A stretch of DNA of 64,000 bases from a virus: positions 1 through 64,000 of IMG/VR virus record IMGVR_UViG_3300023179_000037. One strand, written 5' to 3'. The position numbers were made by a program, and so were the translations under genes. The notes beneath the pieces are model-generated. The model worked only from the letters and a program-made list of their open reading frames with translations, had not been told where the DNA came from and did no database searches. Numbering within the stretch: position 1 is the first letter of the stretch; each line of letters begins with the position of its first letter. This document shows positions 10,276-39,369 of this stretch, piece after piece.

Positions 10276-11439
10276 ATGAAATTGACAGAAATTGAAAAAC
10301 GAGATATTGTTGCCGATCTTGCTGAAAAATTTGGTGCATCAGCATCTAGAAAAATTATTATAAAGCACTTTAAAGATTCATCTCTCCCGGTTCCTAATTG
10401 GCTAATTAATGGTGACGAGTATCGTTTAGAACGAGGCATAATAAATTTATCCTTGCCCTTAGATCAAAATAAAATAATAATGAAAAAAGAAGAAACACAT
10501 ATGCCCGCATTACAAGCACAAGTAGTCCAAATTAAACAAAAGAAATTAGATCAACAAATAGATAATCTAGTTCCTATTAAAGATTATACTTATGTTCCTT
10601 TTGGATTTTTTAAAGATTTAGAAGAAATTATTAAGTCTGAATCATTTTATCCATTGTTTATTACTGGTTTATCTGGTAATGGTAAAACAACTATGGTTGA
10701 GCAAGTTTGTGCTAAGTTGAATAGAGAGTGTATTCGAGTAAATATTAGTATTGAAACGGATGAGGATGACCTTGTAGGTGGAAATACTTTAGTAGATGGA
10801 AATGTTGTCTTTAGAGAGGGTCCTGTAATTACTGCTATGCGTAGAGGAGCTATTCTACTTATTGATGAGATAGATAGAGGTAGCAATAAACTTATGTGTA
10901 TTCAAGGTATCTTGGAGGGCAAGCCTTTTTTTATTAAGAAAACCGGCGAAGTAGTACATCCAACTAATGGTTTTAATATCGTAGCAACTGCTAATACTAA
11001 AGGTAAAGGCACTGATGACGGTAAGTATATTGCTGCTCAAATTTTGGATGAAGCTTTTCTAGAACGTTTTCCAATCACTATTGAACAGGAATATCCTACT
11101 TTAGTAACCGAGAGAAAGATTATTCATAATAATATGAAACTGCTAGGGTGCACTGATGATGAGTTTGCGGATAAGTTGGTAGAATGGGCAGAAATTATTC
11201 GAAAAACTTATTTGGAAGGCGCAATTGATGAATTAATTTCTACACGACGTCTAGTACATATTGTTAAAGCATATTCAGTATTTAAAGATAAACTGAAAGC
11301 GATTAATCTGTGTATAAATCGCTTTGATTCTGATACTAAAAATGCTTTTATTGATTTGTATAATAAAATGGATTTGCCAAAACAACAGGAAACTGTACCA
11401 AGTCAGCCTTTATCTAACAATGATGAATTGCCTTTATAG
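10276..11439 (+). CDS. cobS: AAA+ ATPase, CobS/MoxR-like
   Basis: The 387-residue protein has Walker A GLSGNGKTT (about residues 131-139), Walker B LLIDEID (near 194) and sensor 1 NIVATANT. An N-terminal extension of about 100 residues probably binds partners. Marine T4-like phages carry such genes annotated cobS. The adjacent VWA gene with CobT-like features points to a two-component ATPase-VWA machine. The symbol is by family convention. The function in the phage is not established here. Confidence 0.8.
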   Translation: MKLTEIEKRDIVADLAEKFGASASRKIIIKHFKDSSLPVPNWLINGDEYRLERGIINLSLPLDQNKIIMKKEETHMPALQAQVVQIKQKKLDQQIDNLVPIKDYTYVPFGFFKDLEEIIKSESFYPLFITGLSGNGKTTMVEQVCAKLNRECIRVNISIETDEDDLVGGNTLVDGNVVFREGPVITAMRRGAILLIDEIDRGSNKLMCIQGILEGKPFFIKKTGEVVHPTNGFNIVATANTKGKGTDDGKYIAAQILDEAFLERFPITIEQEYPTLVTERKIIHNNMKLLGCTDDEFADKLVEWAEIIRKTYLEGAIDELISTRRLVHIVKAYSVFKDKLKAINLCINRFDSDTKNAFIDLYNKMDLPKQQETVPSQPLSNNDELPL

Positions 11440-13010: not shown

Positions 13011-13883
13011 ATGAAAAAGTTAAAACTTGGATTTACTGATACTCATGATCACCTAGCTTCATTCTTTTATTCCCTATTATCCACTAGATATGAAATAGAA
13101 ATAGATAATAGTGACCCAGAATATTTAATTTTTGGTGATAATAATTTTGGCAATAATAATTTACGGTTCTCTAAAGATAAGTGTATAAAGATTTTTTATA
13201 CAGGTGAAAATCAGAGGCCCGAGGATTATGATTGCCATTATGCCATTTCTTTTGATCACATTTATGAACCATGGCATTATAGACTTCCTTTATTTGTAAT
13301 TTATATGTGGGCATGGAAGCATATTCACAATATGAAATATGATATGGATTTCATTCTTAGAGATAATGACATTCTAAAGAAAACATCTTTTGCTTCTTTT
13401 GTTGTATCTAATCCAAATTGTAGTGAAAGAAATAAATTCTTTAAGTCATTAAATGAATATAAGACAATTGACAGTGGAGGAAAACTATTCAATAATATAA
13501 ATGCTAATATAGATGGAGAGCAGGGCAAAATAGATTTTTTGTCTACTAGAAAATTTAATATCGCATTTGAACCTTTTTCATATCCTGGTTATACTACCGA
13601 AAAAATAATGCACGCATTTTATGCTGGGACAATCCCAATTTATTGGGGAAATGAATTAGCTAACTCAGACTTCAATAGAGATGCATTTATCAATGTACAT
13701 GATTTTTCATCATTTGACGATGCAATTAATTATATTATGAGGGTTGATAATGATGATTCACTTTATAATAAAATAGTAAAATCTCCCAAGTTTATCAATA
13801 ACATTCCTCCATCTTATCTTATTTTAGATAATTTTCTAAATTGGTTTGATGCAGTGGTATATAATAAGATACTACAACGATGA
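13011..13883 (+). CDS. GT10 (alpha-1,3-fucosyltransferase)-like glycosyltransferase
   Basis: The 290-residue protein shows KIFYTGEN and YAISFDH in the N-terminal half. The C-terminal half has FASFVVSNPNCSERNKF and the GT10 signature KFNIAFEPFSYPGYTTEKI, followed by AFYAGTIPIYWG. These match the donor-binding part of bacterial alpha-1,3-fucosyltransferases. It would transfer fucose or a similar deoxysugar from a nucleotide donor to a glycan. There is no good Shine-Dalgarno before the ATG. Confidence 0.85.
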   Translation: MKKLKLGFTDTHDHLASFFYSLLSTRYEIEIDNSDPEYLIFGDNNFGNNNLRFSKDKCIKIFYTGENQRPEDYDCHYAISFDHIYEPWHYRLPLFVIYMWAWKHIHNMKYDMDFILRDNDILKKTSFASFVVSNPNCSERNKFFKSLNEYKTIDSGGKLFNNINANIDGEQGKIDFLSTRKFNIAFEPFSYPGYTTEKIMHAFYAGTIPIYWGNELANSDFNRDAFINVHDFSSFDDAINYIMRVDNDDSLYNKIVKSPKFINNIPPSYLILDNFLNWFDAVVYNKILQR

Positions 13884-14593
13884 AAATACATACATTTATC
13901 TTTAATTGGCGTAACCAATACAATAAAACACTTGAAAAAATTGAACAATTCAGAGAAATAGGAATCCACCCTACCGTTATTAATAGTGATGAAGCATTCT
14001 ATTTAGACAATTGGCACAACTTAGGGGATGATGCATATTTTACTGCGCAAATGCTTAAGGCATTGGAAGTTTTTGATGGGGAAGTTTTATTTCATATACA
14101 AGCGGATGCTAGTTATAATAGATGGGCAGAATTAATAGCAGATGCTAAAAAATATTATGATCTTTACAAATGGGGTATCTATGCCCCTAACGTAGATTAC
14201 ACTTGGTATGATTCATCTAGAACAGATTTGGATTGTTTTACTGTAGATGAAACACCATTAAAAATGGTGGCAAATACTGATTGTACATGTTGGTTTATTC
14301 ATAAAGATGTAATTAATAAAGCGACTGAGCGCGATATAAATTTCGCACCGTATAAAATGGGTTGGAGTTTTGATATAGTTTATCCTGCATTATCATATCT
14401 TATGAAACGTCCTGTATTGAGAGATTATTCTCACACTATTAAGCATCCAAGAGGAACTAATTACGATACACAACAAGCAGAAAAAGAAATGGCGGATCTT
14501 TATAACTCATTACCTGTAGATATACAAGAAGCTTTTTACTATATTAAGGGTGATAGAATGCAGTTGTCTAAATACTATATGGATCAACAATGA
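13880..14593 (+). CDS. GT-A glycosyltransferase-like protein, family not recognised
   Basis: The 237-residue protein overlaps both neighbours by 4 bases. It has an N-terminal MKIHTFIFNWRNQ strand, a VLFHIQADAS segment at the place of a GT-A DxD motif, and ANTDCTCWFIHKDV downstream. I infer a nucleotide-sugar-dependent transferase from the pattern and context only. Confidence 0.45.
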   Translation: MKIHTFIFNWRNQYNKTLEKIEQFREIGIHPTVINSDEAFYLDNWHNLGDDAYFTAQMLKALEVFDGEVLFHIQADASYNRWAELIADAKKYYDLYKWGIYAPNVDYTWYDSSRTDLDCFTVDETPLKMVANTDCTCWFIHKDVINKATERDINFAPYKMGWSFDIVYPALSYLMKRPVLRDYSHTIKHPRGTNYDTQQAEKEMADLYNSLPVDIQEAFYYIKGDRMQLSKYYMDQQ

Positions 14594-15498
14594 TAATAGA
14601 TTTTCATCAAACTAATAGTTTTTTAAAACAAAAATTATTAGATAATGAATCATTTTATGCTTTAAGAATTGACAATACTGCAGGGTATGTTATTGAATGT
14701 CTCTTAAAAGGTGAAAACCCTGACCCAGGATTTTATACTGAAAAATCTATAATCGAGGCAGGTGTTGTGCCAACAACCAAAGAATATACATTAAATAGTT
14801 TGTATCCAATGACTATTGAATGTATGAAAAGATCTGATTTACTTGGTTTTGTTGATGTAGCAAATACACTTCATACTAAGAAAGATTTTTTAAATCATTT
14901 TTCCGGAAGACCTATATTTGCTGGATTACCAATGTTGGTTATGGATCCGGCGGCATTAGTAAATATTTCTGGTTATTATGAATGCACCGATCCTTGGACA
15001 AAATATTTAAAGGGAAAGAAGGTTTTAGTTGTATCTACTCACGCCGAATCTATTTTATATCAATGGGATAATATGAATAAAGTATGGGGCGATAAAAAAG
15101 ATTTAATTGTTCCTTTTGATTTAGTCGACGTAATTAGAAGCCCTTATCATCCTAGCATGGATAATAGACAGTATCCAAATTGTAAAAATTGGGAAGAAAC
15201 TGTAGAATACATTAAACACAAAATGGAGTCTTATGATTTTGATGTGCTGTTAGCAGGATCGACAACATCTGCTCCTTTCTATGCAGAACATGCTAAGAAT
15301 ATCGGCAAAGTGGGCATTCAAACTGGTGGCACAATACAACTCTTTTTTGGTATACTTGGTTATCGTTGGACACAGGTAGAGGGATATAAAAATTGGCATA
15401 AGATGTATAATGAACATTGGATAAATCCACTGCCTATTGATGAAGCCAAATTTCGTAAAGATAATCTTAGATTAGAAACTAATTTTGCATACTGGTAA
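14590..15498 (+). CDS. GT-D/DUF1792-like putative glycosyltransferase
   Basis: The 302-residue protein contains GKKVLVVSTHAESI and, near the C-terminus, NIGKVGIQTGGTIQLFFGI. The second segment resembles the GKxAIxxGGxxQLxFG motif of glycan-locus proteins related to the GT-D fold. It is tightly packed between a GT-A-like gene and the RfbH-like gene. Function is inferred from these motifs and the island. Confidence 0.45.
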   Translation: MIIDFHQTNSFLKQKLLDNESFYALRIDNTAGYVIECLLKGENPDPGFYTEKSIIEAGVVPTTKEYTLNSLYPMTIECMKRSDLLGFVDVANTLHTKKDFLNHFSGRPIFAGLPMLVMDPAALVNISGYYECTDPWTKYLKGKKVLVVSTHAESILYQWDNMNKVWGDKKDLIVPFDLVDVIRSPYHPSMDNRQYPNCKNWEETVEYIKHKMESYDFDVLLAGSTTSAPFYAEHAKNIGKVGIQTGGTIQLFFGILGYRWTQVEGYKNWHKMYNEHWINPLPIDEAKFRKDNLRLETNFAYW

Positions 15499-15499
15499 A

Positions 15500-16819
15500 A
15501 TGAAACAAGAAATAATTGATAATGTATCAAAGTTTTTCGTTGAAAAAGCTAAAAATAAAAAATGGACGGCAGGCAAAGACTTTGTAAATTATGCAGGACC
15601 ATACTTTGATGAGAGAGAATATGCTTCTGTCATGGATACATTACTTGATGGTTGGTTAGTAATGGGAGAGAAATGCCTAAAGTTTGAAAAAGAATTCCCA
15701 AAGTATTTTGGTAAATCACATGGCATAGTGACCAATTCAGGTTCAAGTTCTAATCTTCTTATGATGTCATCGTTGACATCTAAAAGAGGTTATAATCTAT
15801 CTAAAGGAACTAAAGTATTAGTGCCTGTAGCTGGATTTCCTACTACTTTTAATCCCATTTTGCAGGTAGGATTTGAGCCAATATTTTTAGATATTGAAAT
15901 TGATACATTAAATTTAGATTTAACCAAAGCAGAAGATTTAATTAAAAAATATAATATTAGAGTAATAACGTTTGCACACGTTTTAGGTAATCCCCCAAAC
16001 ATGCGTTGGATAATGGAATTAGTTAACAAATATGATTTATTATTTTTAGAAGATTGTTGTGATGCGTTGGGAACAACTTATGATGGAAAAGAGCTTGGCT
16101 CATTTGGCATAATGTCCACCTGTAGTTTTTATCCTGCTCATCATATAACTATGGGTGAGGGTGGTTATGTTGCTTGTAATACATATGAACAAGAAGTTAT
16201 TCTCAGATCATTTAGAGAATGGGGTAGAGGTTGTTACTGTGTAGGACCCGAGGCGAATAAATTACAATGCGGTACTTGTGGTAAAAGGTTTAGTGAATGG
16301 ATTCCGTGTTTAAAAGAACAGATTTTCGATCACAAATATGTATATGATGAGATAGGATATAATCTTAAACCCATTGAAGTTCAGGGGGCGATGGGTGTAG
16401 TTCAACTACAGAAATTAAATGAAATTCATTCATTACGAAAAAGAAACTACAAATTAATGTTTGAAATTTATAGTAAATATGAAGAATATTTTCATTTGCC
16501 TAGAGCACAAGAATATAGTGATCCCAGTTGGTTTGCATTTCCATTAACTATTAGAAAAGGTTCCCCTTTTAATAGAAATGATATAGTAGATTATCTTGAA
16601 ACAAATTTGATTCAGACAAGGCCGTATTTTGCTGGTAACTTATTACTACAACCTGCTTATTCTCATTTAATGAATTCTGAAGATGCTAAAAGAGAATTTC
16701 CCATAGCCACATTTGTGATGCAAAATACTTTCTTCCATGGCACTAGTCCGGTTATTACGAAAGAGCAAATTAATTACATTGGGTATACTGTAGATAATTT
16801 CATGAGTTTATTTAAATGA
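15500..16819 (+). CDS. rfbH: RfbH/DdhC-like PMP- and Fe-S-dependent sugar 3-dehydratase
   Basis: A 439-residue member of the DegT/DnrJ aminotransferase fold. At the position of the PLP-binding lysine it has FYPAHHITMGEGG, with His214 instead of Lys, the hallmark of CDP-6-deoxy-4-hexulose 3-dehydrase (E1). Cysteines 245, 247, 257 and 260, ending in CGKRF, match the [2Fe-2S] ligands of E1. The enzyme removes the 3-hydroxyl of a 4-keto-6-deoxyhexose to make 3,6-dideoxysugars. ATG 15500 is preferred to the upstream TTG. Its reductase partner (E3) is not in the window. Confidence 0.88.
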   Translation: MKQEIIDNVSKFFVEKAKNKKWTAGKDFVNYAGPYFDEREYASVMDTLLDGWLVMGEKCLKFEKEFPKYFGKSHGIVTNSGSSSNLLMMSSLTSKRGYNLSKGTKVLVPVAGFPTTFNPILQVGFEPIFLDIEIDTLNLDLTKAEDLIKKYNIRVITFAHVLGNPPNMRWIMELVNKYDLLFLEDCCDALGTTYDGKELGSFGIMSTCSFYPAHHITMGEGGYVACNTYEQEVILRSFREWGRGCYCVGPEANKLQCGTCGKRFSEWIPCLKEQIFDHKYVYDEIGYNLKPIEVQGAMGVVQLQKLNEIHSLRKRNYKLMFEIYSKYEEYFHLPRAQEYSDPSWFAFPLTIRKGSPFNRNDIVDYLETNLIQTRPYFAGNLLLQPAYSHLMNSEDAKREFPIATFVMQNTFFHGTSPVITKEQINYIGYTVDNFMSLFK

Positions 16820-17862
16820 GAGTATGTGATTACATAGCAGAATTTTTATATAACTACGGTGTCAGACGTGTTTATGGTTTGATGGGTGGGGGCGCATCTG
16901 GTCTTAATGATGGTTTTATAAAAAATGGTTTGATAGAATATGTTTGTTTTCATCATGAACAGGGTGCCGGATATGCTGGATATGCTGAAGCTAAATCTAC
17001 AAATAAACTAGCAGTTGTTAATCCGACAACAGGATGTGGTGGTACAAATTGTATGACGCCATTACTTAATAGTTGGCAGGATTCAATTCCTGTATTATTT
17101 TTATCTGGTAATGTTAGATTAACACATACTTCTAATTACATCAATAAAACTAAAAAGGTTAATATTCGAAAGTATGGTGTTCAAGAACACGATATAACTA
17201 ATACGGTAAAAAATATAACTAAGTATACAACAGTTATAGAAAATCCTGACGATGTACAATACGAATTACAAAAATCTATATACATCGCAACAAGCGGAAG
17301 ACCAGGGCCCGTGTGGATAGATATACCCAGTGATGTACAAACAGCAACAATGCCTAAAAATTCTAGAATCTTTTTATCTGATTCTAATAAAAATAAAAAA
17401 ACAATAGCATATAAATCATTTGAAGAAGTACTTCTTCAATCTAGTAAACCTATTGTATTGGCGGGCAACGGTATTCATCTAAGTAATACTAGAGATATAT
17501 TTAAAGATTTTATTGAATATCACAACATTCCTTTTGTGTCTACCTATTTAGGTAGGGATTTAATAGAATATGATCACGAATTGAATTTGGGAGCAATCGG
17601 CATAAAGGGAACTAGAGCAGCTAACTTTGCTTTGTATTATGGTGATTTATTACTAATATTGGGTTGCTCCTTAAATGCTACACATATGGGGTATGATGAA
17701 AAGCAATTTTCGCCTTTTTCATATAAAATAATGGTAGACATTGATAAAAATGAAACATTAAAATCTATTATTAATATAGATAAAATTTTTAATTTAGATT
17801 TAAGGATTTTCTTTGATGAATATCAATACAGAAAGACAAAAAAATTGGGCAACTCTTTGTAA
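16816..17862 (+). CDS. ThDP-dependent enzyme, N-terminal part (acetolactate synthase/YerE-like)
   Basis: The 348-residue protein has the pyrimidine-binding domain of ThDP enzymes: VYGLMGGGASGL, then FHHEQGAGYAGYAEAK with the catalytic glutamate at residue 48, then NPTTGCGG. A central domain with GRPGPVWIDIPSDVQ and LILGCS follows. The PP domain is missing and is encoded by the next, overlapping gene in another frame. Next to an RfbH-type enzyme this suggests YerE, the acetolactate-synthase homologue that adds a two-carbon branch to a 3,6-dideoxy-4-ketosugar. Confidence 0.8.
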   Translation: MRVCDYIAEFLYNYGVRRVYGLMGGGASGLNDGFIKNGLIEYVCFHHEQGAGYAGYAEAKSTNKLAVVNPTTGCGGTNCMTPLLNSWQDSIPVLFLSGNVRLTHTSNYINKTKKVNIRKYGVQEHDITNTVKNITKYTTVIENPDDVQYELQKSIYIATSGRPGPVWIDIPSDVQTATMPKNSRIFLSDSNKNKKTIAYKSFEEVLLQSSKPIVLAGNGIHLSNTRDIFKDFIEYHNIPFVSTYLGRDLIEYDHELNLGAIGIKGTRAANFALYYGDLLLILGCSLNATHMGYDEKQFSPFSYKIMVDIDKNETLKSIINIDKIFNLDLRIFFDEYQYRKTKKLGNSL

Positions 17863-18589
17863 AACTTGGAAAGATAAGTGGCCTGTTTATACTAATGATT
17901 ATAATGATACTGATCGAGCAATAAACATTTATACATTTATAGAAGTTTTGAACGATGTAATGAATGAAAATCATATAGTAATAACAGATGCCGGATCGCC
18001 TTCATATGCTTTACCTCAAAATTTAAAATGTAAATCTAATCAACGTTTTATTTTCTCAGCAGCACAAGCGGATATGGGATTTTCTATTCCAGGATCTGTA
18101 GGAGTAGCCAAAGCTAATCCAAATAAGCATATTATTGTTGTAACGGGTGATGGTAGTTTTAATTCAAATCTACAAGAGCTGGCAGTTATAAAATATCATA
18201 GATTGCCAATAAGTATTTTTGTTTTGGATAATAATGGATACTTAAGTATTAAAAATACACAAAAGAAGTTTTTTGAAAATCGAGTATATGGTGTAAATCC
18301 TAGTACAGGTATAATGTTCGCAGATTTAGTTAAATCTGCTAAATTATTTAATTTAGATTACTATGTTTTAGATAGAATTTCCGATATGCAGAAAATTATT
18401 ATGGAAATACTTGATTCATCTAAACCTAAAATTGTACAGGTTATTTCTCAAGAAGAACAGGATATTATACCAACTCAAATGTTTAAAACGGTTAATGGTA
18501 GTAGAGTACAACCCGGATTAGACGATATGTATCCATTTATAGAAGAACAAGATTATATTGAAGAGAGGAAAAAAGCTTTAAATATATGA
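17816..18589 (+). CDS. ThDP-dependent enzyme, C-terminal PP domain
   Basis: The 257-residue protein holds the ThDP pyrophosphate-binding domain: GDGSFNSNLQEL near residue 110, followed by VLDNNGY, the GDG-x-NN motif. It overlaps the N-terminal gene by 47 bases in the +1 frame. AAGGA sits 9 bases before the ATG, so it can be translated on its own as a second subunit. A frameshift in a once single gene is the alternative. Confidence 0.8.
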   Translation: MNINTERQKNWATLCKTWKDKWPVYTNDYNDTDRAINIYTFIEVLNDVMNENHIVITDAGSPSYALPQNLKCKSNQRFIFSAAQADMGFSIPGSVGVAKANPNKHIIVVTGDGSFNSNLQELAVIKYHRLPISIFVLDNNGYLSIKNTQKKFFENRVYGVNPSTGIMFADLVKSAKLFNLDYYVLDRISDMQKIIMEILDSSKPKIVQVISQEEQDIIPTQMFKTVNGSRVQPGLDDMYPFIEEQDYIEERKKALNI

Positions 18590-19401
18590 AAATACTTGTA
18601 TTAGGTGCTAACGGCTTTATTGGTAATCACTTATGTCAATATTTAGTATCTAAAAAACATCATGTAATAATGTTTAATAAACACGTCGATGTTTTAAAAG
18701 ATAATAAATTGTATGATTATATAAAGGATATATCCCCTCATGTATTAATTAATTGTATTACTTTTGGAGGCAAAAAAGAAATATTATCAAATGATTTACA
18801 TTTTGCTATAGATAATTTAATATTGTTTTCTAATATTTTTAAGGCATCCAAATACTTTAAAAAATTTATAAATATAGGGTCCGGCGCAGAATTTTTAGAA
18901 GATAAGAATACGAATCTTGATTTTATCTCAGAAGTATCTATATGGGAAAAATATCCCAATTTTGGAGCATACGCTTCATCCAAAAATATTATAGCTAGAT
19001 TATGTGATATTACTGATAATTACTACACTTTAAGATTATTTGGTTGTTTTGGTCAAAATGAACCCGCATTTAGAATATTTACAGCATATAAGAACTCATT
19101 ATTAAATAATACTGTTTTTCAGTTATCTGATAAGTATTTTGATAATTTTTTTATAGAAGACTTTTGTAAAGTAATTGAATACTTTATAAATTACAATCCT
19201 GCGATCAAAGATATAAATTGTGTTTATACGGAGAAATTTAAACTAAGTCAACAGTTAGAACTACTTTCTTTTGTAAACAATTGGCCAATAAATTTTAAAA
19301 TAAAAGAGACAGGTACAAATTATACAGGATGTTCTAAAAATTTAGAAAGTCTAAATTTAAATTTGGTAGGGTTGACATCGGGATTAAAAACATACAAATG
19401 A
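18586..19401 (+). CDS. SDR-family sugar reductase/epimerase
   Basis: The 271-residue protein has the NAD(P) motif LGANGFIG, an INIGSGAEF strand and YASSKN as the catalytic YxxxK. It is shorter and more diverged than GalE. Following the RfbH and ThDP genes with 4-base overlaps, it fits a reductase that completes a branched sugar (the YerF position), which is an inference. Confidence 0.7.
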   Translation: MKILVLGANGFIGNHLCQYLVSKKHHVIMFNKHVDVLKDNKLYDYIKDISPHVLINCITFGGKKEILSNDLHFAIDNLILFSNIFKASKYFKKFINIGSGAEFLEDKNTNLDFISEVSIWEKYPNFGAYASSKNIIARLCDITDNYYTLRLFGCFGQNEPAFRIFTAYKNSLLNNTVFQLSDKYFDNFFIEDFCKVIEYFINYNPAIKDINCVYTEKFKLSQQLELLSFVNNWPINFKIKETGTNYTGCSKNLESLNLNLVGLTSGLKTYK

Positions 19402-20351
19402 GAAAAATAGTTTATGTAACAGGGTGTTTAGGTTTTATAGGTTACCATGTAACCAAAGCGTGTTTAGATAGGGGTTGGTATGTATATGGAATAGATAAAT
19501 GTACATATGCTGCTAATTGTAATTTATTAGACGATTTGCAGAGTTATGGTGAACATTTTAAATTTGACGTAATAGATATAAATGATATTTCAAGATTATA
19601 TGACTGTGATTATGTAATTAATACTGCTGCTGAAACACATGTAGACAACAGTATTGAGAGCTCGGATGTTTTTCTTAAAAGTAATGTTAATGGTGTTCAC
19701 AAATTACTTGAATTGATAAAATGTAAACCTAAATCAAGAAGACCTATTTTGTTACATTTTAGTACAGATGAAGTTTATGGGGATATTGAAATAGGCTCTC
19801 ATTCTGAGGAAGATCTTTTATTACCAAGCAATCCCTATAGTGCCACAAAAGCAGCTGCTGATATGCTTATCTTAGCATGGGCAAGAACATATAGTATTCC
19901 CTATATTATAGTTAGGCCTACTAATAATTATGGTATTGGTCAATATGTGGAAAAATTTATTCCGAAAGCAATTAAAAATTTAAGCCTTGGTAAAAAAATT
20001 GTAATGCACAATGAAGGATTACCTAAAAGAACATGGCTTCATGTATCCGATACTGCCAATGCAGTTATTACAATAATAGAAAAGAATGTAGTAAATGAAA
20101 TTTATAATATTTCTGGCAATGTAGAAAAACAAAATATAGATGTAGCTCAACAATTACTTGGTTTATTTTATAGTAATACTTCATATACATTTAATGATAA
20201 TTTTGATTTTTCGGAAGTAAGACCTGGTCAAGATGTACGTTATTCAATTAACGATAAAAAATTAAAAGATTTAGGTTGGGAGCCAAAAGCTATCTTTGAA
20301 AATGAATTGATTCAGATAATGAATTGGTATAGAAAGAATTTTATATGGTAA
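19398..20351 (+). CDS. nucleotide-sugar 4,6-dehydratase (RmlB-like)
   Basis: A 317-residue extended SDR. It has VTGCLGFIG, TAAETHVDNS, FSTDEVYGDI (the T-D-E triad of 4,6-dehydratases) and NPYSATKAAADM with the catalytic YxxxK. It would make a 4-keto-6-deoxy sugar nucleotide, the substrate needed by the RfbH-like enzyme. The sequence looks closer to dTDP-glucose than to CDP-glucose dehydratases, but the nucleotide cannot be decided by eye. Confidence 0.85.
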   Translation: MRKIVYVTGCLGFIGYHVTKACLDRGWYVYGIDKCTYAANCNLLDDLQSYGEHFKFDVIDINDISRLYDCDYVINTAAETHVDNSIESSDVFLKSNVNGVHKLLELIKCKPKSRRPILLHFSTDEVYGDIEIGSHSEEDLLLPSNPYSATKAAADMLILAWARTYSIPYIIVRPTNNYGIGQYVEKFIPKAIKNLSLGKKIVMHNEGLPKRTWLHVSDTANAVITIIEKNVVNEIYNISGNVEKQNIDVAQQLLGLFYSNTSYTFNDNFDFSEVRPGQDVRYSINDKKLKDLGWEPKAIFENELIQIMNWYRKNFIW

Positions 20352-20989
20352 AATATTTTACGTTTAGTATTTGGGGAGATAATCCTAAATACACTTTCGG
20401 TGCTATTAGAAATGCTCAATTAGCACAAAAAATATTTCCAGATTGGAAGTGCTTATTTTACCATGACAATACTGTTCCTAATGCGGTCCTAAATATTCTA
20501 AGAAATTTCGACAACAGTGAAGTAATTGAAATCACAGATAATTCATTTGGAGCATTCTGGAGATTTGATATAATGTTTGACGGCGGGGACGTCGTATTAT
20601 CAAGAGATACTGATTCTAGATTAAGTGAGAGAGAAAAAGTTTTAATTGACCATTGGCTTGAAACTAATGCTAATTACATGGTAATTAGAGATCATCATAA
20701 TCATTATGAATTCCCAATACTTGCTGGTATGTGGGGGAAAAAATGTATTGCTCTTAATAGAAATTTTAAAGTTATTATGGAGCAATATAGATACACTAAA
20801 ACTTATACTGTAGATCAAGTATTTCTTAGAGACGTTGTATGGCCTTTGATTCAATATGAGACTCAAGTTTACGGTGTTAAAGAAGTAGAATGGATGAGGG
20901 ATAATTATGATTTTACTGGTCGTCATTTTATAGGACAAACATATACTGAAAATGACGAACCAGTATACGAGGGAAAAATAGATGAATGA
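20345..20989 (+). CDS. glycosyltransferase-like protein of the glycan island
   Basis: The 214-residue protein has RFDIMFDGGDVVLSRDTDSR, with a DTDSR segment in the position of a GT-A DxD motif, and ILAGMWGKK further on. The family is not recognised with certainty. It overlaps both neighbours (7 and 8 bases), so it is part of the same operon. Confidence 0.5.
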   Translation: MVKYFTFSIWGDNPKYTFGAIRNAQLAQKIFPDWKCLFYHDNTVPNAVLNILRNFDNSEVIEITDNSFGAFWRFDIMFDGGDVVLSRDTDSRLSEREKVLIDHWLETNANYMVIRDHHNHYEFPILAGMWGKKCIALNRNFKVIMEQYRYTKTYTVDQVFLRDVVWPLIQYETQVYGVKEVEWMRDNYDFTGRHFIGQTYTENDEPVYEGKIDE

Positions 20990-24007: not shown

Positions 24008-24742
24008 GTGAAAATAATTAAAGATTTATATGGTTATTCTTCAAACAAATTAGAAATTATAGATGATAATGGTTTTATATTTGTTAGAAAATATGGCGAT
24101 AACCAAAGAAATTTAGAACGATTACTAGTATTAAAAAATTTGGATCTGCCTACTCCAAAGATATTACATTGCACTAATGAATATTATGATATGGAATTTA
24201 TTCAGGGCATGGATATCAAAAACTACCTTTTGAATCATTCGTCTGAAGGGTTGGCAAGTTTTTTAGTATCTCTGTTGGATACATTTAAAAAATATACTAA
24301 AGAAAAATGTTATATAGATGTATACAACAAAAAACTTTATAATGTAGATTTCTCTGATCTTAGCTTTAATAAGCAACAACTAATAGAAAAATTACCTAAA
24401 GTATTGCCGTCTTCTCTATACCACGGGGACTTAACTTTAGATAATATTTTATATGATATAAAAAATAATCGATTTGTTCTTATTGATCCATTAACTACTG
24501 ATTATGATTCATATGTATTTGATGTATCCAAATTAAAACAAGATTTAATATGTAAATGGTTTATACGAGATACAGATTTGATCTTAGATTCTAAGTTAAA
24601 GCATATAGATGATTTAATAAGTGATAATTTTTCCTATAATTATTTAGTTATACTAATGTTGTTAAGAATTTATCCTTATGTAAAAACCAAAAAAGATTAT
24701 ATTTTTTTAACTAATGAGATTAATAAATTATGGAAATTATAA
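24008..24742 (+). CDS. aminoglycoside phosphotransferase/choline-kinase-like kinase
   Basis: The 244-residue protein has YHGDLTLDNIL (the HGDxxxxN catalytic loop) and LIDPLTTDYDS, with the metal-binding Asp, as in APH/choline kinases. A GTG start follows the previous stop directly. It sits before a nucleotidyltransferase gene, a kinase-cytidylyltransferase pairing like LicA/LicC or sugar-activation pairs. It would phosphorylate a small alcohol or sugar. Confidence 0.7.
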   Translation: MKIIKDLYGYSSNKLEIIDDNGFIFVRKYGDNQRNLERLLVLKNLDLPTPKILHCTNEYYDMEFIQGMDIKNYLLNHSSEGLASFLVSLLDTFKKYTKEKCYIDVYNKKLYNVDFSDLSFNKQQLIEKLPKVLPSSLYHGDLTLDNILYDIKNNRFVLIDPLTTDYDSYVFDVSKLKQDLICKWFIRDTDLILDSKLKHIDDLISDNFSYNYLVILMLLRIYPYVKTKKDYIFLTNEINKLWKL

Positions 24743-25749
24743 TTCCGTGTGCTGGTCATTCTACTAGATTTCCTAATCTAAGACCTAAATATTTACTAAC
24801 AAATTATAGTGGCAAACTGATGGTCGAGAAGGCAGCTGAATGTTTTTCCTCGGACAAAAATAGATTAACTATTGCTATTTTAAAGGAACATGATGATGTT
24901 TATAATTCAAGTAAAATATTAACAAATACTTTTGGTAATACAATTAATATTGTAGTATTAGACAATTATACAAAAGGTCCCGCTGATACAGTTTATCAAT
25001 GCTTAAAAAAATTAGAATTAAATAAAAATGAACCTTTTCTAGTAAAAGATTGTGATAGTTTTTATCAAACAGATTTACCTGCGGGCAATTCTATTCATGT
25101 TTCAAGATTATCGTCTAATCCAAAAATAAAAAATCCAGCAGCTAAAAGTTTTACTATTTCAAATAATCAAGATATAATTTTATCCATTATTGAAAAGAAA
25201 ATAGTTAGTGATACTTTTTGTGTAGGCGGTTATCAATTTGAAAGAGTAGAAGATTACATTAATGCTATAGAAAAATTAGCAACATCTAATTCTGCTGAAA
25301 TATTTGTTTCTAATGTAATAGATTATTTGATTTCTAAAGGCAAGGTATTTACGCAAACTGAAGTTTCTAACTATATAGATGTTGGTACAGCGGAGGATTG
25401 GTTAGATTATAATAAAAAACCAACCTATTTTTGTGATATAGATGGTACTATTATAAAATCTAAAAGTGATATTGTTACCTATGAACCTTTGGTTGAAAAT
25501 ATTAAAATTCTATTGGAAAAAAAATCTAAAGGGTGTAAAATTATATTTTGTACAGCAAGACCGAACAAATTAAAAGATATAACTCGTACAATGTTGGATA
25601 ATCTTGGTTTTAATGGTTGTGAATTAATTATGGAAATACATCATTCATCTAGAGTTTTGATTAATGATTATGCAAAATCCAACCCGTATCCCTCAGCAGT
25701 TGCTATAAATCTGCGAAGAGATACTGATAATTTAGGAGAATTGATTTGA
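24730..25749 (+). CDS. nucleotidyltransferase-HAD phosphatase fusion
   Basis: The 339-residue protein has two domains. Residues 1-230 are a nucleotidyltransferase, with IIPCAGHSTRFP (the GxGxR-like loop), RPKYLL, LVKDCDSFY (the metal-site Asp) and YIDVGTAEDW. Residues 233-339 form a HAD-like domain with YFCDIDGTII (DxDGT nucleophile loop), IFCTARP and VLINDYA. It would activate a phosphorylated compound to an NDP form and also dephosphorylate one. It overlaps the kinase gene by 13 bases. Confidence 0.8.
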   Translation: MEIIIPCAGHSTRFPNLRPKYLLTNYSGKLMVEKAAECFSSDKNRLTIAILKEHDDVYNSSKILTNTFGNTINIVVLDNYTKGPADTVYQCLKKLELNKNEPFLVKDCDSFYQTDLPAGNSIHVSRLSSNPKIKNPAAKSFTISNNQDIILSIIEKKIVSDTFCVGGYQFERVEDYINAIEKLATSNSAEIFVSNVIDYLISKGKVFTQTEVSNYIDVGTAEDWLDYNKKPTYFCDIDGTIIKSKSDIVTYEPLVENIKILLEKKSKGCKIIFCTARPNKLKDITRTMLDNLGFNGCELIMEIHHSSRVLINDYAKSNPYPSAVAINLRRDTDNLGELI

Positions 25750-26058: not shown

Positions 26059-26715
26059 ATGCAAATTAGTAAAGAAACAATTGAAATTCTAAAGAATTTT
26101 GCCAGCATAAACAGCAATATTCTTATTCGTAAAGGTAAAACGCTAGCTACTATTAGTACAGCAAAAAATATTTTTGCTAAAGCAGCCGTAGCGGAAGATT
26201 TTCCTGTAGAAGTACCAATCTATGATTTGAATTCTTTGTTAGCATTGCTGACACTAATGGAAAATCAAAATGTCGAGTTCGGGGATAAATCGTTAACGAT
26301 TTCCAAAGATGGAGGAAAATTTGAGTATTTTTATTCTAATCTAGGCGTAATTGTAGCAGCCCCAGATAAAACCATTGAATTAGATAATCATTTTCAGTTT
26401 AAGTTATCCGCTGAGGATGTACAAATGATAATGAAAGCTGCAGCAATCACATCTGCCCCTACTATTTCTGTTACTTGTAAATATCAACAGGTTGTTCTTA
26501 CTATTGGTGATAAAAAGAATGATACTGCAAATACTTATAAGAAAACTATAGGTTCTGGGCTTGAAGATTTTGAATGCCATATTGCTGTGGAGAACTTTAA
26601 AATTATTCCTGATGCGTATTCGATTACTATTTCCAAAAAGAAATTTATGCATTTTAAAAATGAAACAAAATCTATAGAATATTTTATCGCAATGGAACCA
26701 GATTCTGTAGTTTAA
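26059..26715 (+). CDS. 45: sliding clamp gp45
   Basis: The 218-residue protein matches T4-type gp45 in length and order: an N-terminal ETIEILKNFASINSNILI, central EFGDKSLTI and a hydrophobic C-terminal strand near EYFIAMEP. It is the trimeric processivity factor for the DNA polymerase and, in T4, the activator of late transcription. The clamp loader genes follow. The late promoters in this window make its dual role likely here too. Confidence 0.9.
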   Translation: MQISKETIEILKNFASINSNILIRKGKTLATISTAKNIFAKAAVAEDFPVEVPIYDLNSLLALLTLMENQNVEFGDKSLTISKDGGKFEYFYSNLGVIVAAPDKTIELDNHFQFKLSAEDVQMIMKAAAITSAPTISVTCKYQQVVLTIGDKKNDTANTYKKTIGSGLEDFECHIAVENFKIIPDAYSITISKKKFMHFKNETKSIEYFIAMEPDSVV

Positions 26716-33221: not shown

Positions 33222-35843
33222 TTATCTCCTGTATTGTTGATCGACCATTTCCTGATGAAGTCTGTCGCTTGATAGTTGTCTTAATGCCCTTACATTATCC
33301 ACAGTTCGTTGATTTCTGTATATCTCTTTGGGAGCATAAAAATTAACATCTGATAAAGCAACCAAATAGGTATTAAATCCCACTGGCGCTCTGGCCAGAT
33401 TATCTATAGAAACTCCAGCAGCTGCATCGTTGTCTTGAATATTTTGTTTTGTGGTATACTGAGTATTAGTTTGTCTTTCTGGTTCCGGAGTAGTTGGTTT
33501 TGTATCTAGAATGTTGTTTATAGGATTAGTTCTATCGATTAAAAAATTACCTGCAGTTTGAGGAATTTCTAACTGTGTAACAGGAGCTATGGCAACTGTC
33601 TGTGTTGTAACTGGTTGAACTTCTGCACTTTGTATTTGTGGAGGTTGTACTAGGTTTATCTGTATGGCTCCAGCATTGGTAACAATATTTTCTGACTGTA
33701 ATTGTTCCTGTTTATCAGATAACTGCATCATCGGCGGAGTATATTGACTACTTGTTTGTGTTTGAGTTGCAGCAACAGCAGAACTAGTTGGTGGCAGTAA
33801 AGGACTAGCAGTGCCTGTTTCAGATCTTCTTTCCTCGATAATTGGCGCTGTACTCACATTTATATTTACAAAGGTTTGTACTGAACCTGTATTTTGTTGA
33901 ATGGTCTGATTAGATGTATTAAAGATTTGTACCGGATTAACTATGACTACACTAGTATTTGTACTAGTTTGCTCGGTCTGTGCAACAGATGTTATGGGTT
34001 TTAATGATACCATGCCTAAAACTTCTGCACTATTCTGAGTATTTTGTTGGTTATTTACTGTAGCACTGGAATCTGATTTATTGAAAACTATGCTAGTGCT
34101 GCCTGGTGCTGGGCCAACTATAAAGGTTTCAGATTTATTTGTGCCAGCTATGGATTCTGTAGAGCCAGAAGATTTCTGAGAACTTATATCTGAAGAACTT
34201 TTCTGAGCCAAATCCAAAGCCAATGTTTCTGCCTGTTTTATGCCTGCTACAGCGCTTATCTGTGCATTTTCTACAGCAGTCTGACTAGCCTGCAGAGCTA
34301 TGTTGTTCTCTCTTTGTTGATTTTGTTTGATTATAGATAATGCCAGAGCTGTAGAATCAGACTGTGCAGGATTATCAAGTCTTGAAATAGATTTGCCTGT
34401 TGATTCAGATACGCTCATGGTCAATGAAGTTACGGGCGATGGTGCTCCAGGTGGAGGGGCGGAACCTGGAAGTGGGGGAGATCCCAGTGGAGGTTTACCA
34501 GAATCACTATCAATAATGGCTACTTTTATTTTGGGATTAGTAGATTCTGGATCTTCCAGAGGAGCAGGTATTTTTCCTGCAGGAGGCGGAGTGGATGCAG
34601 TAATAATTTCATTCAATGATGTTTGTTGAATTTTATTTTGTTCGTCTGCCAATCGTTTTATTTCAGCATTAAAGTTGCTGCAGTTTGGACTATATAATGG
34701 CTGTGTATAACAGGGATCTGGACTCCATATGGGTTTAGTATAGGGTGCTATGCCCATGTTGTCGCCATATCCTCCCCATACATTCCAACTTATTCTGCCC
34801 ATGTTAAGACTATTCTGCGATTCAACAAAAAGAACTCGTCCAGATCTGCTGCCCCCACTGTAATTTCCTTCGACCCACCAGCTATCATTGTACAGACTAG
34901 TACCAAATTTATCGTTTATATTAAAACTAACATTTCTTCCATTGGCGCCACTGGAAGCCCAACAAATTATAAAACTAGCAGTACAATAATCACCAGCATA
35001 ATACCCGAATCCATAGTCAAAACCATGTAACTGTACACCGCCACCTATGTGAGGAAGTGTTTTAGCAATATCATAGTTCCACCAAAAGGTTGGACTCAAA
35101 GATCCTTGTACAACACTGCTAAATCCCGGACAACCTGAACTAAAAGCAGGATTTAGTATGCAGGGATCTACACTGTAATTCACATGCATGTAGGCATCTT
35201 TTACCTGCGGTCCATAGCATTGGTTTCCAGAACAGGCCCAAAATCCTGTATCCATGCCAGTGATGCTTAGCTTGGCTGTGCCCACTGTTGACAACATCTT
35301 GGCCCCGGAAAATGTATAGGTTTCGGCCAAGGATTGCCAGGTAGGATTATAAGGGGGATTTCCGTCATTGATATTTTTTAAACCAAGCTGATGCAGTTGT
35401 GAATGCTCTATGGCTCCGGACTTGTTAAAATATTCAAAGGTTGCACTCAGATTATCCTGCATTCCAGATACATCTTCACAATATCCACCGATTTTATTTG
35501 CACAGGGAAATCTATACTGAAAACCATAGCTTATTCCAGTAACAAAAATAGCGCTCGTGTTCTGATAATTAACTGGAAAATTACCTGCATTTACTGTTTG
35601 CGATACTGTGCTGTTGGAATAAGAAAAAGTATAACCATCGGTCACAAAACTACCAGGCATTCCGCTGACATTCCAGCCATTGTTGGTTTTTAGGCTACTG
35701 TCATAGTTTAGTAAATTGCCGGTCTGTAGATCTATGCTATAACCGCTGGGCGTATTAATGGATCCTGAACTGGTAGCCTGAGCCAGAACAGCAGAGCTCT
35801 GCGTCAGCAACAATAAGCACAGTATAATCTTTAAAAAATTCAT
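33222..35843 (-). CDS. large exported protein, 873 residues
   Basis: A signal peptide (MNFLKIILCLLLLTQSSAVLAQ) has an AxA-type cleavage site. Residues 25-390 are rich in aromatics, Gly and paired cysteines (for example CANKIGGYC, CILNPAFSSGC, CYTQPLYSPNC), like an extracellular beta-rich domain. A Pro-rich linker (about 420-470) and a long Gln/Ser/Thr-rich low-complexity region follow, then a conserved-looking C-terminus (APVGFNTYLVALSD). It probably acts outside the inner membrane, as a secreted, host-surface or virion-exported factor. No family is recognised. It overlaps its neighbour gene by one base. Confidence 0.65.
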   Translation of the reverse strand: MNFLKIILCLLLLTQSSAVLAQATSSGSINTPSGYSIDLQTGNLLNYDSSLKTNNGWNVSGMPGSFVTDGYTFSYSNSTVSQTVNAGNFPVNYQNTSAIFVTGISYGFQYRFPCANKIGGYCEDVSGMQDNLSATFEYFNKSGAIEHSQLHQLGLKNINDGNPPYNPTWQSLAETYTFSGAKMLSTVGTAKLSITGMDTGFWACSGNQCYGPQVKDAYMHVNYSVDPCILNPAFSSGCPGFSSVVQGSLSPTFWWNYDIAKTLPHIGGGVQLHGFDYGFGYYAGDYCTASFIICWASSGANGRNVSFNINDKFGTSLYNDSWWVEGNYSGGSRSGRVLFVESQNSLNMGRISWNVWGGYGDNMGIAPYTKPIWSPDPCYTQPLYSPNCSNFNAEIKRLADEQNKIQQTSLNEIITASTPPPAGKIPAPLEDPESTNPKIKVAIIDSDSGKPPLGSPPLPGSAPPPGAPSPVTSLTMSVSESTGKSISRLDNPAQSDSTALALSIIKQNQQRENNIALQASQTAVENAQISAVAGIKQAETLALDLAQKSSSDISSQKSSGSTESIAGTNKSETFIVGPAPGSTSIVFNKSDSSATVNNQQNTQNSAEVLGMVSLKPITSVAQTEQTSTNTSVVIVNPVQIFNTSNQTIQQNTGSVQTFVNINVSTAPIIEERRSETGTASPLLPPTSSAVAATQTQTSSQYTPPMMQLSDKQEQLQSENIVTNAGAIQINLVQPPQIQSAEVQPVTTQTVAIAPVTQLEIPQTAGNFLIDRTNPINNILDTKPTTPEPERQTNTQYTTKQNIQDNDAAAGVSIDNLARAPVGFNTYLVALSDVNFYAPKEIYRNQRTVDNVRALRQLSSDRLHQEMVDQQYRR

Positions 35844-37426
35844 TAGTTATACTCGCCCGATGTATAACCCTTTACTGTTTTTGCTTCGGCGGGCTGAGTT
35901 TTATAATCATACTGAGGTATTTTTTCGGGATTGGCTTGCCATAAATCTTTGGCCTGATCACCTATTTTTCCTTCATAAGGACAGGGAGTACCAGCTGCCA
36001 TCATGGCTTCCCATACTCTGCGATCCTGACACATGGTAGCCACAGCAGCAACCTTCATGCCCATGTCAAATAAGGTTTTACTAAGCTTTAATCTTTCGCA
36101 GTTTAAATCTCGTTGAGTACCACCCAATGCCATACCGAACATCTGAGTTTGCAGCGCACCGCTGGCACCTGTAGTGCACAGATCAGCACCCCCGCCAGAC
36201 ATCATGGCAGGAGCTATGGCTGTTGGGGGCGGCTGTATGACACGCTGTGTAATAGTGGTTTCGTTGATGTTTCTATTGGTCATGTCTCCAGTCTGGACAT
36301 TCTGATTAATATTAGTGTTGTTATTCTGATTTATATTTGTGTTGGTTGATGTAGCAGTGGACTGATTAATGTTGCGATTGGTCATGTCTCCAGTCTGGAC
36401 ATTGGTATTATTATTGTTGGTTGTAGCTGTCGTCTGGTTAATGTTGCGATTGGTCATGTCTCCAGTCTGAACATTGTTGTTGGTGTTTACATTGTTGGCT
36501 GTACTGGTGCTATTGTTGTTATTATTATAGGTCATGGTGCCAGTATTGACGTTATTATTGGTGTTAACACTGGTGGAGTTATTGGTGTTTATGCTGGTAC
36601 TCGTCGATGTATTGATGTTGCGATTGGTCATATCTCCAGTATTAATATTATTATTTGTAGCAGTGCTGGTACTGGTATTGACATTGTTGTTATTGTAGGT
36701 AACAGTTCCAGACATAATAGTTCTATTGGTACTGTCACTAGTACTGGTATTTTGATTGATGTTGGTTATTTGTCCAGACTGAATATTGTGATTTGTATTA
36801 ACATTAGTCGCAGTACTGGTGCTGGTATTTTGATTGATGTTAGTTATCTGCCCAGACTGAATATTATTGTTGGTATTTACATTGTTATTTGTACTGGTGC
36901 TAGTACTGGTATTTTGATTGATGTTGGTTATCTGCCCAGACTGAATATTATTGTTGGTATTTACATTGTTGTTTGTACTTACACTGGTGCTGGTTGATGT
37001 GTTGTTATTGTTATTGGTCATGGTACCAGTATTTACATTATTATTGTTGTAGGTAACCGATCCACTCATATTATTGTTGTTGTTATTGGTTACTGTGCCG
37101 CTCTGCACATTATTATTGGTATTTACATTTGTGCTTGTACTGGTGCTGGCGTTGACATTATTGTTGGTATTAGTACTAATACTGTTTACTGTACTGTTAT
37201 TAGTATTTGTACTTGTACTAACACTGGTATTATTGGTTTGTACAGAACTGGTGCTGTTAGATGTCGAATTGGTATCTACAAGACTTTTGGAATCGTAACT
37301 GCCTTGGTTTATGGGGTTAGTAGTACTGGTAGTAGTTCCGTTAGATGTTGACTGAGTACTGGTGTTTTGCGCTGATGCTATCGCCGTAAACATAATTAAA
37401 AGCGCTGCTAGAGCCGCTTTTAACAT
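35843..37426 (-). CDS. exported Asn/Thr/Ser-repeat protein with Cys-containing C-terminal domain
   Basis: The 527-residue protein has a signal peptide ending in ASAQ. About 370 residues of imperfect 26-28-residue repeats follow, built from N-rich runs with cores such as NNIQSGQITNINQN and NVQTGDMTNRNINQ. The Q-x-G-x-x-x-N spacing recalls curlin or other beta-solenoid repeats. The C-terminal 110 residues are a distinct domain with four cysteines (LCTT, LNCERLKLSKTL, MCQDRR, CPYEG). It is first in the leftward operon, with AAAAGGAG before its ATG. Confidence 0.65.
   Translation of the reverse strand: MLKAALAALLIMFTAIASAQNTSTQSTSNGTTTSTTNPINQGSYDSKSLVDTNSTSNSTSSVQTNNTSVSTSTNTNNSTVNSISTNTNNNVNASTSTSTNVNTNNNVQSGTVTNNNNNNMSGSVTYNNNNVNTGTMTNNNNNTSTSTSVSTNNNVNTNNNIQSGQITNINQNTSTSTSTNNNVNTNNNIQSGQITNINQNTSTSTATNVNTNHNIQSGQITNINQNTSTSDSTNRTIMSGTVTYNNNNVNTSTSTATNNNINTGDMTNRNINTSTSTSINTNNSTSVNTNNNVNTGTMTYNNNNNSTSTANNVNTNNNVQTGDMTNRNINQTTATTNNNNTNVQTGDMTNRNINQSTATSTNTNINQNNNTNINQNVQTGDMTNRNINETTITQRVIQPPPTAIAPAMMSGGGADLCTTGASGALQTQMFGMALGGTQRDLNCERLKLSKTLFDMGMKVAAVATMCQDRRVWEAMMAAGTPCPYEGKIGDQAKDLWQANPEKIPQYDYKTQPAEAKTVKGYTSGEYN
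36270..37240 (-). repeat. coding tandem repeats of the Asn-rich protein
   Basis: Imperfect in-frame repeats of about 78-84 bases. For example, the same 10-base phrase recurs at 36751, 36829 and 36913 (spacings of 78 and 84). The repeats keep reading frame and vary mostly at Ser/Thr/Asn codons, so selection is on the protein pattern. Such tracts are prone to slippage and assembly collapse. Confidence 0.75.
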
Positions 37427-37562: not shown

Positions 37563-37585
37563 TATAGAGTCTATGGAGATTCTTG

Positions 37586-39046
37586 ATGCGCTTTTATACT
37601 AATGTAGTAAGTTTTGGTAACAAAATACTTGTTCGAGGAATAAACAACGGTAAAAGAGTACAAGATCGAATTGATTTCGGCCCAACTCTTTTTATTAGAT
37701 CAAACAAATCATCTGAATATAAATCCTTATATGGTCAAAACTTAGAATCAATTGCCTTTGAATCAATTAATGAAACTAGGGATTTTATAAAGCGATATAA
37801 AGAAGTAAAAGATTTCCCCATATTTGGTAATACTAATTTTGCATATCAATATATTACTAAAGAATTTCCTGAAGATATAGAATTCGATATTAGTCAGATA
37901 AAAATATGGACAATCGATATTGAAACTTCTGCAGAATTTGGTTTTCCCGATGTTTCTGATCCGATTGAAGAACTATTACTAATTACCATTCAAGATTTTA
38001 ATACTAAAGAAATAGTTTCGTTCGGCACTAGACATTGTAATTCTATAAAAGAAAATCATACATATCATCGCTGTAAAGATGAATATGATCTCTTTAAGAA
38101 ATTTATTGACTTTATGTCTAACGACTATCCTCATATTATTACGGGTTGGAATATTGAATTTTTTGACATTCCTTATCTATGCAATAGAATTCGTAAGATT
38201 CTCGGTGAGGATATTTTAAAACAATTATCTCCCTGGAATGTGGTCAATCAAAGAGAAATTAGTAGATTCAAAAGTATAGAAACAGTTTTTGATATTTTGG
38301 GGATATCTATTTTAGATTATTTAGATTTATATAGAAAATTCACATATACTGCACAAGAATCCTACAAATTAGATCACATTGCTAAAGTAGAACTTGGAAA
38401 AGAAAAAATTGACTATGGTGAATACGATTCGTTTAGAATGTTTTATAAAAATAATTGGCAAAAGTTTGTTGAATATAACGTAGTTGACGTTGAACTTGTA
38501 GATCAACTTGAAGATAAAATGAAGTTGATTGAATTGATTCTTACAATGGCATATGATGCTAAATGTAATTACGTTGATGTATTTTCAGCAGTAAGGACAT
38601 GGGATTGTATTTTGTGGAATCATCTTTGGAAAAAGAACATTGTTGCTCATCAGAGGGATGAGTCTAGAAGTGGTAGACAAATTGAAGGGGCATTTGTACA
38701 AGAACCCAAACCCGGTAAATATGATTGGGTGGTATCTTTCGATGCAACAAGTCTATATCCAAGTATTATTATGCAGTATAATATGTCACCCGAAACAATT
38801 ATGCCGGGAAAAGAAGATGTAACAGTTGATACATTAATTAATAAAGAGCATTCACTTGATACATTGAAAAAAGATAAACTTTGTATGGCAGCAAATGGTT
38901 ATAAGTTTAAAACAGATAAGCAAGGTATTTTTCCTGAAATTGTACAAAAATTATTTGATGACCGGCAAAAGTATAAAAAATTGATGATTGCCGCTCAAAA
39001 AGAGATGCAGTTAATAGAAGAAGAAATACGAAGAAGATCGTCATAA
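37586..39046 (+). CDS. 43: DNA polymerase gp43, N-terminal part (43A)
   Basis: The 486-residue fragment holds the 3'-5' exonuclease domain with Exo I TIDIETS, Exo II ITGWNIEFFDIPY and Exo III YNVVDVELVD. It also holds the start of the palm with motif A SFDATSLYPSIIMQYN. It ends in a stop within the fingers region after IEEEIRRRSS, before motifs B and C. ATG 37586 with GGAG upstream is used rather than the TTG before it. The rest of the polymerase follows in two further pieces. Confidence 0.9.
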   Translation: MRFYTNVVSFGNKILVRGINNGKRVQDRIDFGPTLFIRSNKSSEYKSLYGQNLESIAFESINETRDFIKRYKEVKDFPIFGNTNFAYQYITKEFPEDIEFDISQIKIWTIDIETSAEFGFPDVSDPIEELLLITIQDFNTKEIVSFGTRHCNSIKENHTYHRCKDEYDLFKKFIDFMSNDYPHIITGWNIEFFDIPYLCNRIRKILGEDILKQLSPWNVVNQREISRFKSIETVFDILGISILDYLDLYRKFTYTAQESYKLDHIAKVELGKEKIDYGEYDSFRMFYKNNWQKFVEYNVVDVELVDQLEDKMKLIELILTMAYDAKCNYVDVFSAVRTWDCILWNHLWKKNIVAHQRDESRSGRQIEGAFVQEPKPGKYDWVVSFDATSLYPSIIMQYNMSPETIMPGKEDVTVDTLINKEHSLDTLKKDKLCMAANGYKFKTDKQGIFPEIVQKLFDDRQKYKKLMIAAQKEMQLIEEEIRRRSS

Positions 39047-39245
39047 TATTCAAAAAGCAATAGAGAAAAGAATTGGAAGTAAGGATTCCCTCGAAACCAT
39101 CTTTAAAAGAGCAAACTCGGTGAAGAATTTTTATTCTAACAATGTGAGCATTTTAAAGGACGTACCAAAATCAGCAGAACATAAACCGCCATCAATATGA
39201 AAAGATGGCATTTTGAACGTTGCAAAAGGAAAATATGAACCTTAA
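39018..39245 (+). pseudogene. remnant of a homing-endonuclease-like gene inside the polymerase
   Basis: A frame with one internal TGA (39198-39200) encodes KKKYEEDRHNIQKAIEKR, then SAEHKPPSI, stop, KDGILNVAKGKYEP. The second half resembles the NUMOD-type tail of phage GIY-YIG/HNH homing endonucleases (K-S-x-E-H-K...W-K-D-G). It lacks a start and any nuclease core, so it is a decayed leftover. Its end overlaps the start of the next polymerase piece. Confidence 0.45.
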
Positions 39246-39369
39246 AAATCTTTCTATGGAGGAACTGCAAGCGCTTCGAAAAGACACTGAGAAGAAAATT
39301 TCTAGTTTGAATAATTATCAAATGGCTAGAAAAATTCAACTCAATAGTCTTTTCGGTGCGCTTGGTTAA
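39235..39369 (+). CDS. 43: DNA polymerase gp43, middle part (start of 43B)
   Basis: A 44-residue frame, from MNLKNLSMEELQAL to MARKIQLNSLFGALG, is the fingers helix with motif B (KxxxNSLFG). It has its own AAAGGA and ATG, as expected for the second half of a split polymerase. It stops with TAA directly after the GGT codon of GALG, where polymerases normally continue with GN(E)YFRFYD. Confidence 0.8.
   Translation: MNLKNLSMEELQALRKDTEKKISSLNNYQMARKIQLNSLFGALG

Follow-up and report, generated by a model that had tools for sequence, protein, structure and literature searches.

Which sugar would a phage make with an operon of sugar-nucleotide genes that includes a carbon-carbon bond-forming enzyme? 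This question is raised by positions 15500-20351 of the window, by which we mean the first 64 kb of IMG/VR virus record IMGVR_UViG_3300023179_000037, a 111,975-base record that is itself partial. The segment holds five plus-strand genes lying head to tail as one coupled operon, which encode an RfbH/DdhC-type 3-dehydratase, a thiamine diphosphate (ThDP) enzyme in two subunits, a short-chain dehydrogenase/reductase (SDR) and a 4,6-dehydratase. A first-pass annotation had placed these enzymes side by side, and its coordinates proved exact, with all genes on the plus strand and with overlapping starts. The gene junctions are 4-base stop/start overlaps, except for a 47-base overlap within the ThDP pair. 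We propose, with a probability of roughly 70%, that this operon would make a nucleotide-activated C-4-branched 3,6-dideoxyhexose that is placed on a glycan, most likely on the host surface.

The family of the ThDP enzyme is central to this proposal. Its first subunit (PYR plus central domain, 348 aa, 16816..17862, plus strand, PF02776 and PF00205) and second subunit (PP domain, 257 aa with its own ATG, 17816..18589, plus strand, PF02775) together carry the TPP_N, TPP_M and TPP_C domains. The catalytic Glu48 of the first is invariant, and in the second GDG at 111-113 and Asn139 form the GD-X25-30-N motif. Whether compared by sequence or by fold, both halves find their best PDB match in JanthE. 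Predicted models of the halves are usable singly (mean predicted local distance difference test scores of 84 and 74), the best fold match of the first subunit being JanthE (8rph) and the top seven of the second all being JanthE, while the profile of the N half ranks PpYerE (5ahk) and JanthE level. These two nearest structural and profile relatives are ketone-accepting YerE-like lyases; they differ from the window enzyme in being single chains, about 30% identical, and JanthE has CDG in place of GDG. Among decarboxylase-superfamily subclasses, addition to isolated ketones is known only from the YerE-like enzymes, which have a role in lipopolysaccharide sugar biosynthesis (PMC12247030).

Phylogenetic analysis, by a quick tree without bootstraps that was rooted on four acetolactate synthases and scored by the Shimodaira-Hasegawa-like approximate likelihood ratio test (SH-aLRT), places the phage ThDP proteins in one clade (support 100), joined at 98 to 24 bacterial YerE-like proteins. 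These 24 and the group containing JanthE lie inside the ingroup, and the branch to the acetolactate synthases has a support of 100. RfbH is also present in many loci of the bacterial YerE-like proteins. The first-pass annotation had proposed a phylogeny of YerE against other ThDP enzymes as a check, and the enzyme groups with YerE-like proteins rather than with unrelated decarboxylases. Because the phage ThDP proteins form a clade inside the YerE-like family, apart from acetolactate synthases, a C-4-branched 3,6-dideoxyhexose is the best reading of the operon. A genome scan with an alignment of the N domain returned no bacterial relatives and one with an alignment of the C domain returned 80, so that the empty result is no evidence of absence; it probably stems from two phage-specific peptide patterns.

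The first gene of the operon (15500..16819, plus strand) encodes a 439-aa RfbH/DdhC-type 3-dehydratase (E1) of the kind that uses pyridoxamine 5'-phosphate and a [2Fe-2S] cluster. It clears the NCBIfam RfbH model NF011936 (441.1 bits against a cut-off of 423), has its best PDB matches in 3bcx/3bb8 and aligns along its length with the Yersinia 3-dehydratase. As first annotated, His214, within SFYPAHH, occupies the position of the pyridoxal 5'-phosphate lysine of transaminases, and histidine stands there in all phage RfbH homologues with a readable motif. The Fe-S ligands of E1 enzymes follow the pattern C-X57-C-X1-C-X7-C. Four such cysteines are present in the phage protein (one in EDCC, C245, C247 and C260), with a last spacing of X12, not X7. 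The ligand set proposed earlier, Cys245/247/257/260, needs amending: all four residues are there, but the alignment to the Yersinia enzyme and the E1 pattern make C186 or C187 (in EDCCD) with C245, C247 and C260 the more likely ligands, leaving C257 as an extra cysteine.

The last gene (19398..20351, plus strand) encodes an RmlB-like nucleoside diphosphate (NDP)-glucose 4,6-dehydratase with the catalytic motifs TDE (in STDEVYG) and YxxxK (YSATK), both of which could be read in 81 of 82 homologues. It scores 299 bits with the dTDP-type model TIGR01181, and its top PDB matches are all of the dTDP type; the CDP-glucose 4,6-dehydratase (RfbG) model is not passed (70 against 278 bits). We collected 93 phage loci around the ThDP genes, which include the same contigs fetched twice and reduce to 53 distinct loci by ThDP sequence. 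RmlB-type dehydratases occur in 47/53 of these and RfbH likewise in 47/53, while RfbF and RfbG were found in none of the 53. From the RmlB-like gene and this lack of RfbF and RfbG in the phage loci we infer a dTDP-linked route. Between the ThDP genes and the dehydratase lies an extended SDR (18586..19401, plus strand; PF01370, motifs GANGFIG and Y129ASSK), a candidate for the side-chain ketone reductase in the role of YerF. The yersiniose-like route put forward in the first-pass annotation therefore stands as far as a C-branched 3,6-dideoxysugar is concerned, given the YerE-like grouping and an RfbH without the transaminase lysine, but does not extend to the strict sense of a CDP sugar with a pyruvate donor, given the RmlB-type dehydratase, the missing CDP-glucose genes, an RfbH whose E3 partner is absent from the record, and the alternative donor-making genes of related phages. 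Compared with the yersiniose A pathway (DdhB/RfbG, DdhC/RfbH, YerE, YerF), the operon has the same adjacency of a 4,6-dehydratase, an RfbH-type E1, a YerE-like enzyme and an SDR; it differs in having an RmlB-type rather than a CDP-type dehydratase, no RfbF, a two-subunit ThDP enzyme and a place in a phage genome.

Families, active-site residues, gene order, the gene split and the phylogeny were read from the sequence, and from them substrates, step order, nucleotide, donor, product and target glycan are predicted as follows. The RmlB-like enzyme would produce a 4-keto-6-deoxy sugar from NDP-glucose (probably host-derived dTDP-glucose), and RfbH, with a host electron donor replacing E3, would remove the C-3 hydroxyl of that sugar. 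The two-subunit YerE-like enzyme would decarboxylate a 2-oxo acid, pyruvate by default, and transfer the resulting acyl unit onto the ketone at C-4, after which reduction of the side-chain ketone would fall to the SDR. Neighbouring glycosyltransferases would transfer the sugar to a glycan, most likely a host surface glycan during infection. Several observations weigh against this pathway. The true PpYerE falls outside the group of phage proteins and JanthE, although its exact place is unsure, since the tree is a quick one, only the N half was used and the branch is long. The 4,6-dehydratase, at 299 bits, stays under the RmlB cut-off of 365, which makes it RmlB-like and not a confirmed equivalog and leaves the nucleotide unsettled. 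No E3 reductase or ferredoxin domain (PF00175, PF00111) occurs on the partial record; E3 is the pathway partner of RfbH, not a property of the protein itself, and may be supplied by the host. Finally, no transferase was identified for this sugar, the neighbours in the island being candidates.

The branch itself is where another reading survives best. YerE-like enzymes differ in donor: YerE takes pyruvate, and ErwE takes 4-hydroxy-2-oxo acids but not pyruvate (PMC12247030). For this reason, genes beside the ThDP genes can be read as donor suppliers. In the phage loci, which share ancestry and are thus not independent trials, the ThDP genes adjoin a class I aminotransferase in 25/53, a PanB-family protein in 4, an HpcH/HpaI aldolase with an AroB-like protein in 1, and none of these in 23; the aminotransferase, PanB and HpcH kinds accompany 14, 3 and 5 of the 80 bacterial relatives. 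Two kinds never occur together, in the 53 phage loci or the 80 bacterial relatives. That phages carry one of three donor-gene kinds and never two suggests that 2-oxo-acid donors are interchangeable among related phages. A longer or functionalised 2-oxo acid in place of pyruvate, giving an erwiniose- or caryophyllose-like branch by the same pathway, is accordingly a serious if minority possibility, favoured by those neighbours in close phage relatives and by the specificity of ErwE; against it, the partial record of the window carries no aminotransferase, PanB-like or HpcH donor gene. For this phage, a pyruvate-derived two-carbon branch is simply the default. We tentatively extend the argument to a phage-specific heteromeric YerE-like enzyme that would serve as a fixed core while the donor gene is swapped (aminotransferase, PanB-like, HpcH aldolase/AroB-like or none), which would yield a family of dTDP-linked sugars with differing C-4 branches and so vary host or virion surface glycans. 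From the nearby donor genes one can derive testable predictions about the structure of the branch. In one phage locus (L015:11328-13838), an HpcH/HpaI aldolase, an SDR and an AroB-like cyclase (TIGR04425) lie next to a fused YerE-like gene, as they do in the bacterial loci L126 and L143.

As to what the C-4-branched sugar is for, the virus-borne operon probably makes a rare sugar that alters a surface glycan, and the most likely use would be a change of the host surface that blocks other phages. Glycosyltransferase-like genes flank the cassette. T4-like phages can glycosylate their own DNA. This ability, together with several small transferase-like proteins in the island, speaks for decoration of phage DNA or virion proteins instead of the host surface. 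We consider such a target less likely, as the partial record has no protein of the thymidylate-synthase/dCMP-hydroxymethylase family, and glycosyltransferases of marine T4-like phages (pelagimyophage) have been read as host O-chain modifiers (PMC7029224).

Far less probable is that the virus carries an acetolactate synthase to raise the output of branched-chain amino acids. The top NCBIfam matches are indeed acetolactate synthases, and viral K01652 genes have been placed under valine/isoleucine synthesis (PMC8226683), but every acetolactate synthase cut-off is missed by far (the best model gives 179 against 738 bits on the N half), the tree separates the proteins from these enzymes, and the genes sit among sugar genes. 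A housekeeping acetolactate synthase was rejected as well. The same study (PMC8226683) lists viral ilvB alongside rfbG, gmd and fcl, treating amino-acid and sugar genes as separate; that ilvB may be a relative of the window enzyme named by its nearest label. If our proposal is correct, it suggests that sugar enzymes are encoded by at least some of the viral genes filed as 'acetolactate synthase' under amino acid metabolism. The first-pass annotation had treated the ThDP enzyme as a single protein.

In the window, the two ThDP halves are overlapping open reading frames in different frames that meet near an A7 run, and AAGGA, a Shine-Dalgarno-like motif, lies at 17802..17806 (plus strand), within the first-subunit gene and 9 bases 5' of the second ATG. 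The gene is split in 87 of the 93 phage loci and fused in 6, and the 47 distinct phage junctions all fall at one interdomain place. Most overlaps are ATGA; 36/47 junctions overlap by 4 bases, the start is ATG in 46/47, and a Shine-Dalgarno-like motif precedes 40/47 second-gene starts (9.8% before random ATGs). A broken gene or assembly frameshift, to which the convergence of frames near the A7 run might point, is scarcely credible for a split that recurs at the same place in these loci, with its own starts, overlaps, ribosome-binding motifs and two frame relations. A single programmed frameshift was ruled out as well, because the frame of the second gene relative to the first differs between loci, 36 junctions showing one relation and 11 the other. 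On the tree, about three changes account for the history of the split, for example a single splitting event with two re-fusions. The 80 bacterial relatives include none with a break between domains; in L152, the only apparent bacterial split, the gene is interrupted within the N domain rather than where the domains meet. A ThDP enzyme divided between two proteins is already known in the phosphonopyruvate decarboxylase RhiEF (PMC12141560), whose PYR and PP domains likewise occupy separate chains, but which belongs to another ThDP family and acts on another substrate. Since RhiEF already shows a split, the new point is a split inside the YerE-like family. If the assignment is right, the two-gene enzyme represents a naturally split member of a class of biocatalysts that produce tertiary alcohols.

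Dozens of viral contigs have the same gene set around their ThDP genes, which argues against chance and indicates a cassette widespread in uncultured phages. Bacterial loci such as L095, L096, L098, L105 and L117 share the YerE-like enzyme, RfbH and aminotransferase of many phage cassettes, yet their ThDP gene is fused, and in L095, L096, L098 and L117 it has neighbours that look like RfbF and RfbG (by reading of the sequence, not by scan). Cyanophages S-H68, S-B05 and S-B43 carry RfbH genes about 41% identical to that of the window; unlike the window, their records list no ThDP match. No recognisable YerE-like gene occurs in the annotated phage records searched. Protein matches to the ThDP half among phage records reach about 34% identity at most, those with an annotation being acetolactate synthases, and a few unannotated faecal phage contigs lie at 31-34%. 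The first-pass statement that no phage had been described with this route agrees, within the limits of these searches, with annotated phage records and literature, and the operon would be the first viral route, within the searches made, to a branched sugar via carbon-carbon bond formation. Some related phages also encode short E1 alpha/beta-type ThDP proteins (PF00676/PF02779; L003:13153, L026:16027-17229, L050:7834-8999), members of a superfamily responsible for sugar branching in certain antibiotics.

The operon lies in a sugar-gene island bounded upstream by a MoxR-like AAA ATPase (10276..11439, assigned by sequence; homologues in 11/53 loci) and downstream by the gp45 sliding clamp (26059..26715; PF09116, phrog_223), both on the plus strand, as are the genes between them described here. 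These comprise a GT10-family fucosyltransferase (13011..13883; PF00852/PF18025), a conserved candidate transferase immediately upstream of the cassette (13880..14593; 19/53 distinct loci, no Pfam match), and, directly upstream of RfbH, a weakly GT-D-fold-like protein (14590..15498; 20/53 loci) that is a candidate transferase for the sugar and matches PF22882 at an E-value of 0.00085, under the cut-off. A conserved protein gene (20345..20989; 20/53 loci, no Pfam match) overlaps the 3' end of the 4,6-dehydratase gene. In the island of L015 (4414-7497), a GDP-mannose dehydratase, a GDP-fucose synthase and a perosamine-synthase-like protein accompany GT10 transferases as a second nucleotide-sugar set. 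At 24008-25749 of the window, an APH-fold kinase adjoins a nucleotidyltransferase-HAD fusion, a pair that might activate a further substituent for the glycan.

The gp45 clamp and a gp44-type clamp loader mark a T4-like backbone. DNA-level comparison with annotated phages gave no useful match; the nearest annotated relatives of the UvsX-type recombinase include Stenotrophomonas phage DLP_6 and Xanthomonas phage X1 (about 63%), and relatives of a peptidase-type protein are found mainly in cyanophages. On the minus strand, 33222-37426 encodes two long low-complexity, signal-peptide-like proteins rich in Asn/Thr/Ser and unlike the remainder of the window. The DNA polymerase frame (37583-40342) is fragmented: it contains a number of in-frame stops and switches frame at about 39046-39560, for which an intron, a bypass element, decay or sequence error are candidates. 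At 42227-42800, a split intein seems to interrupt the P-loop of a gp41-type helicase; its N piece is very short (CVHPNTKVRIRFKK followed by a stop), and its C piece, which lies in a second open reading frame from 42407, ends in SHN before TGVGKS.

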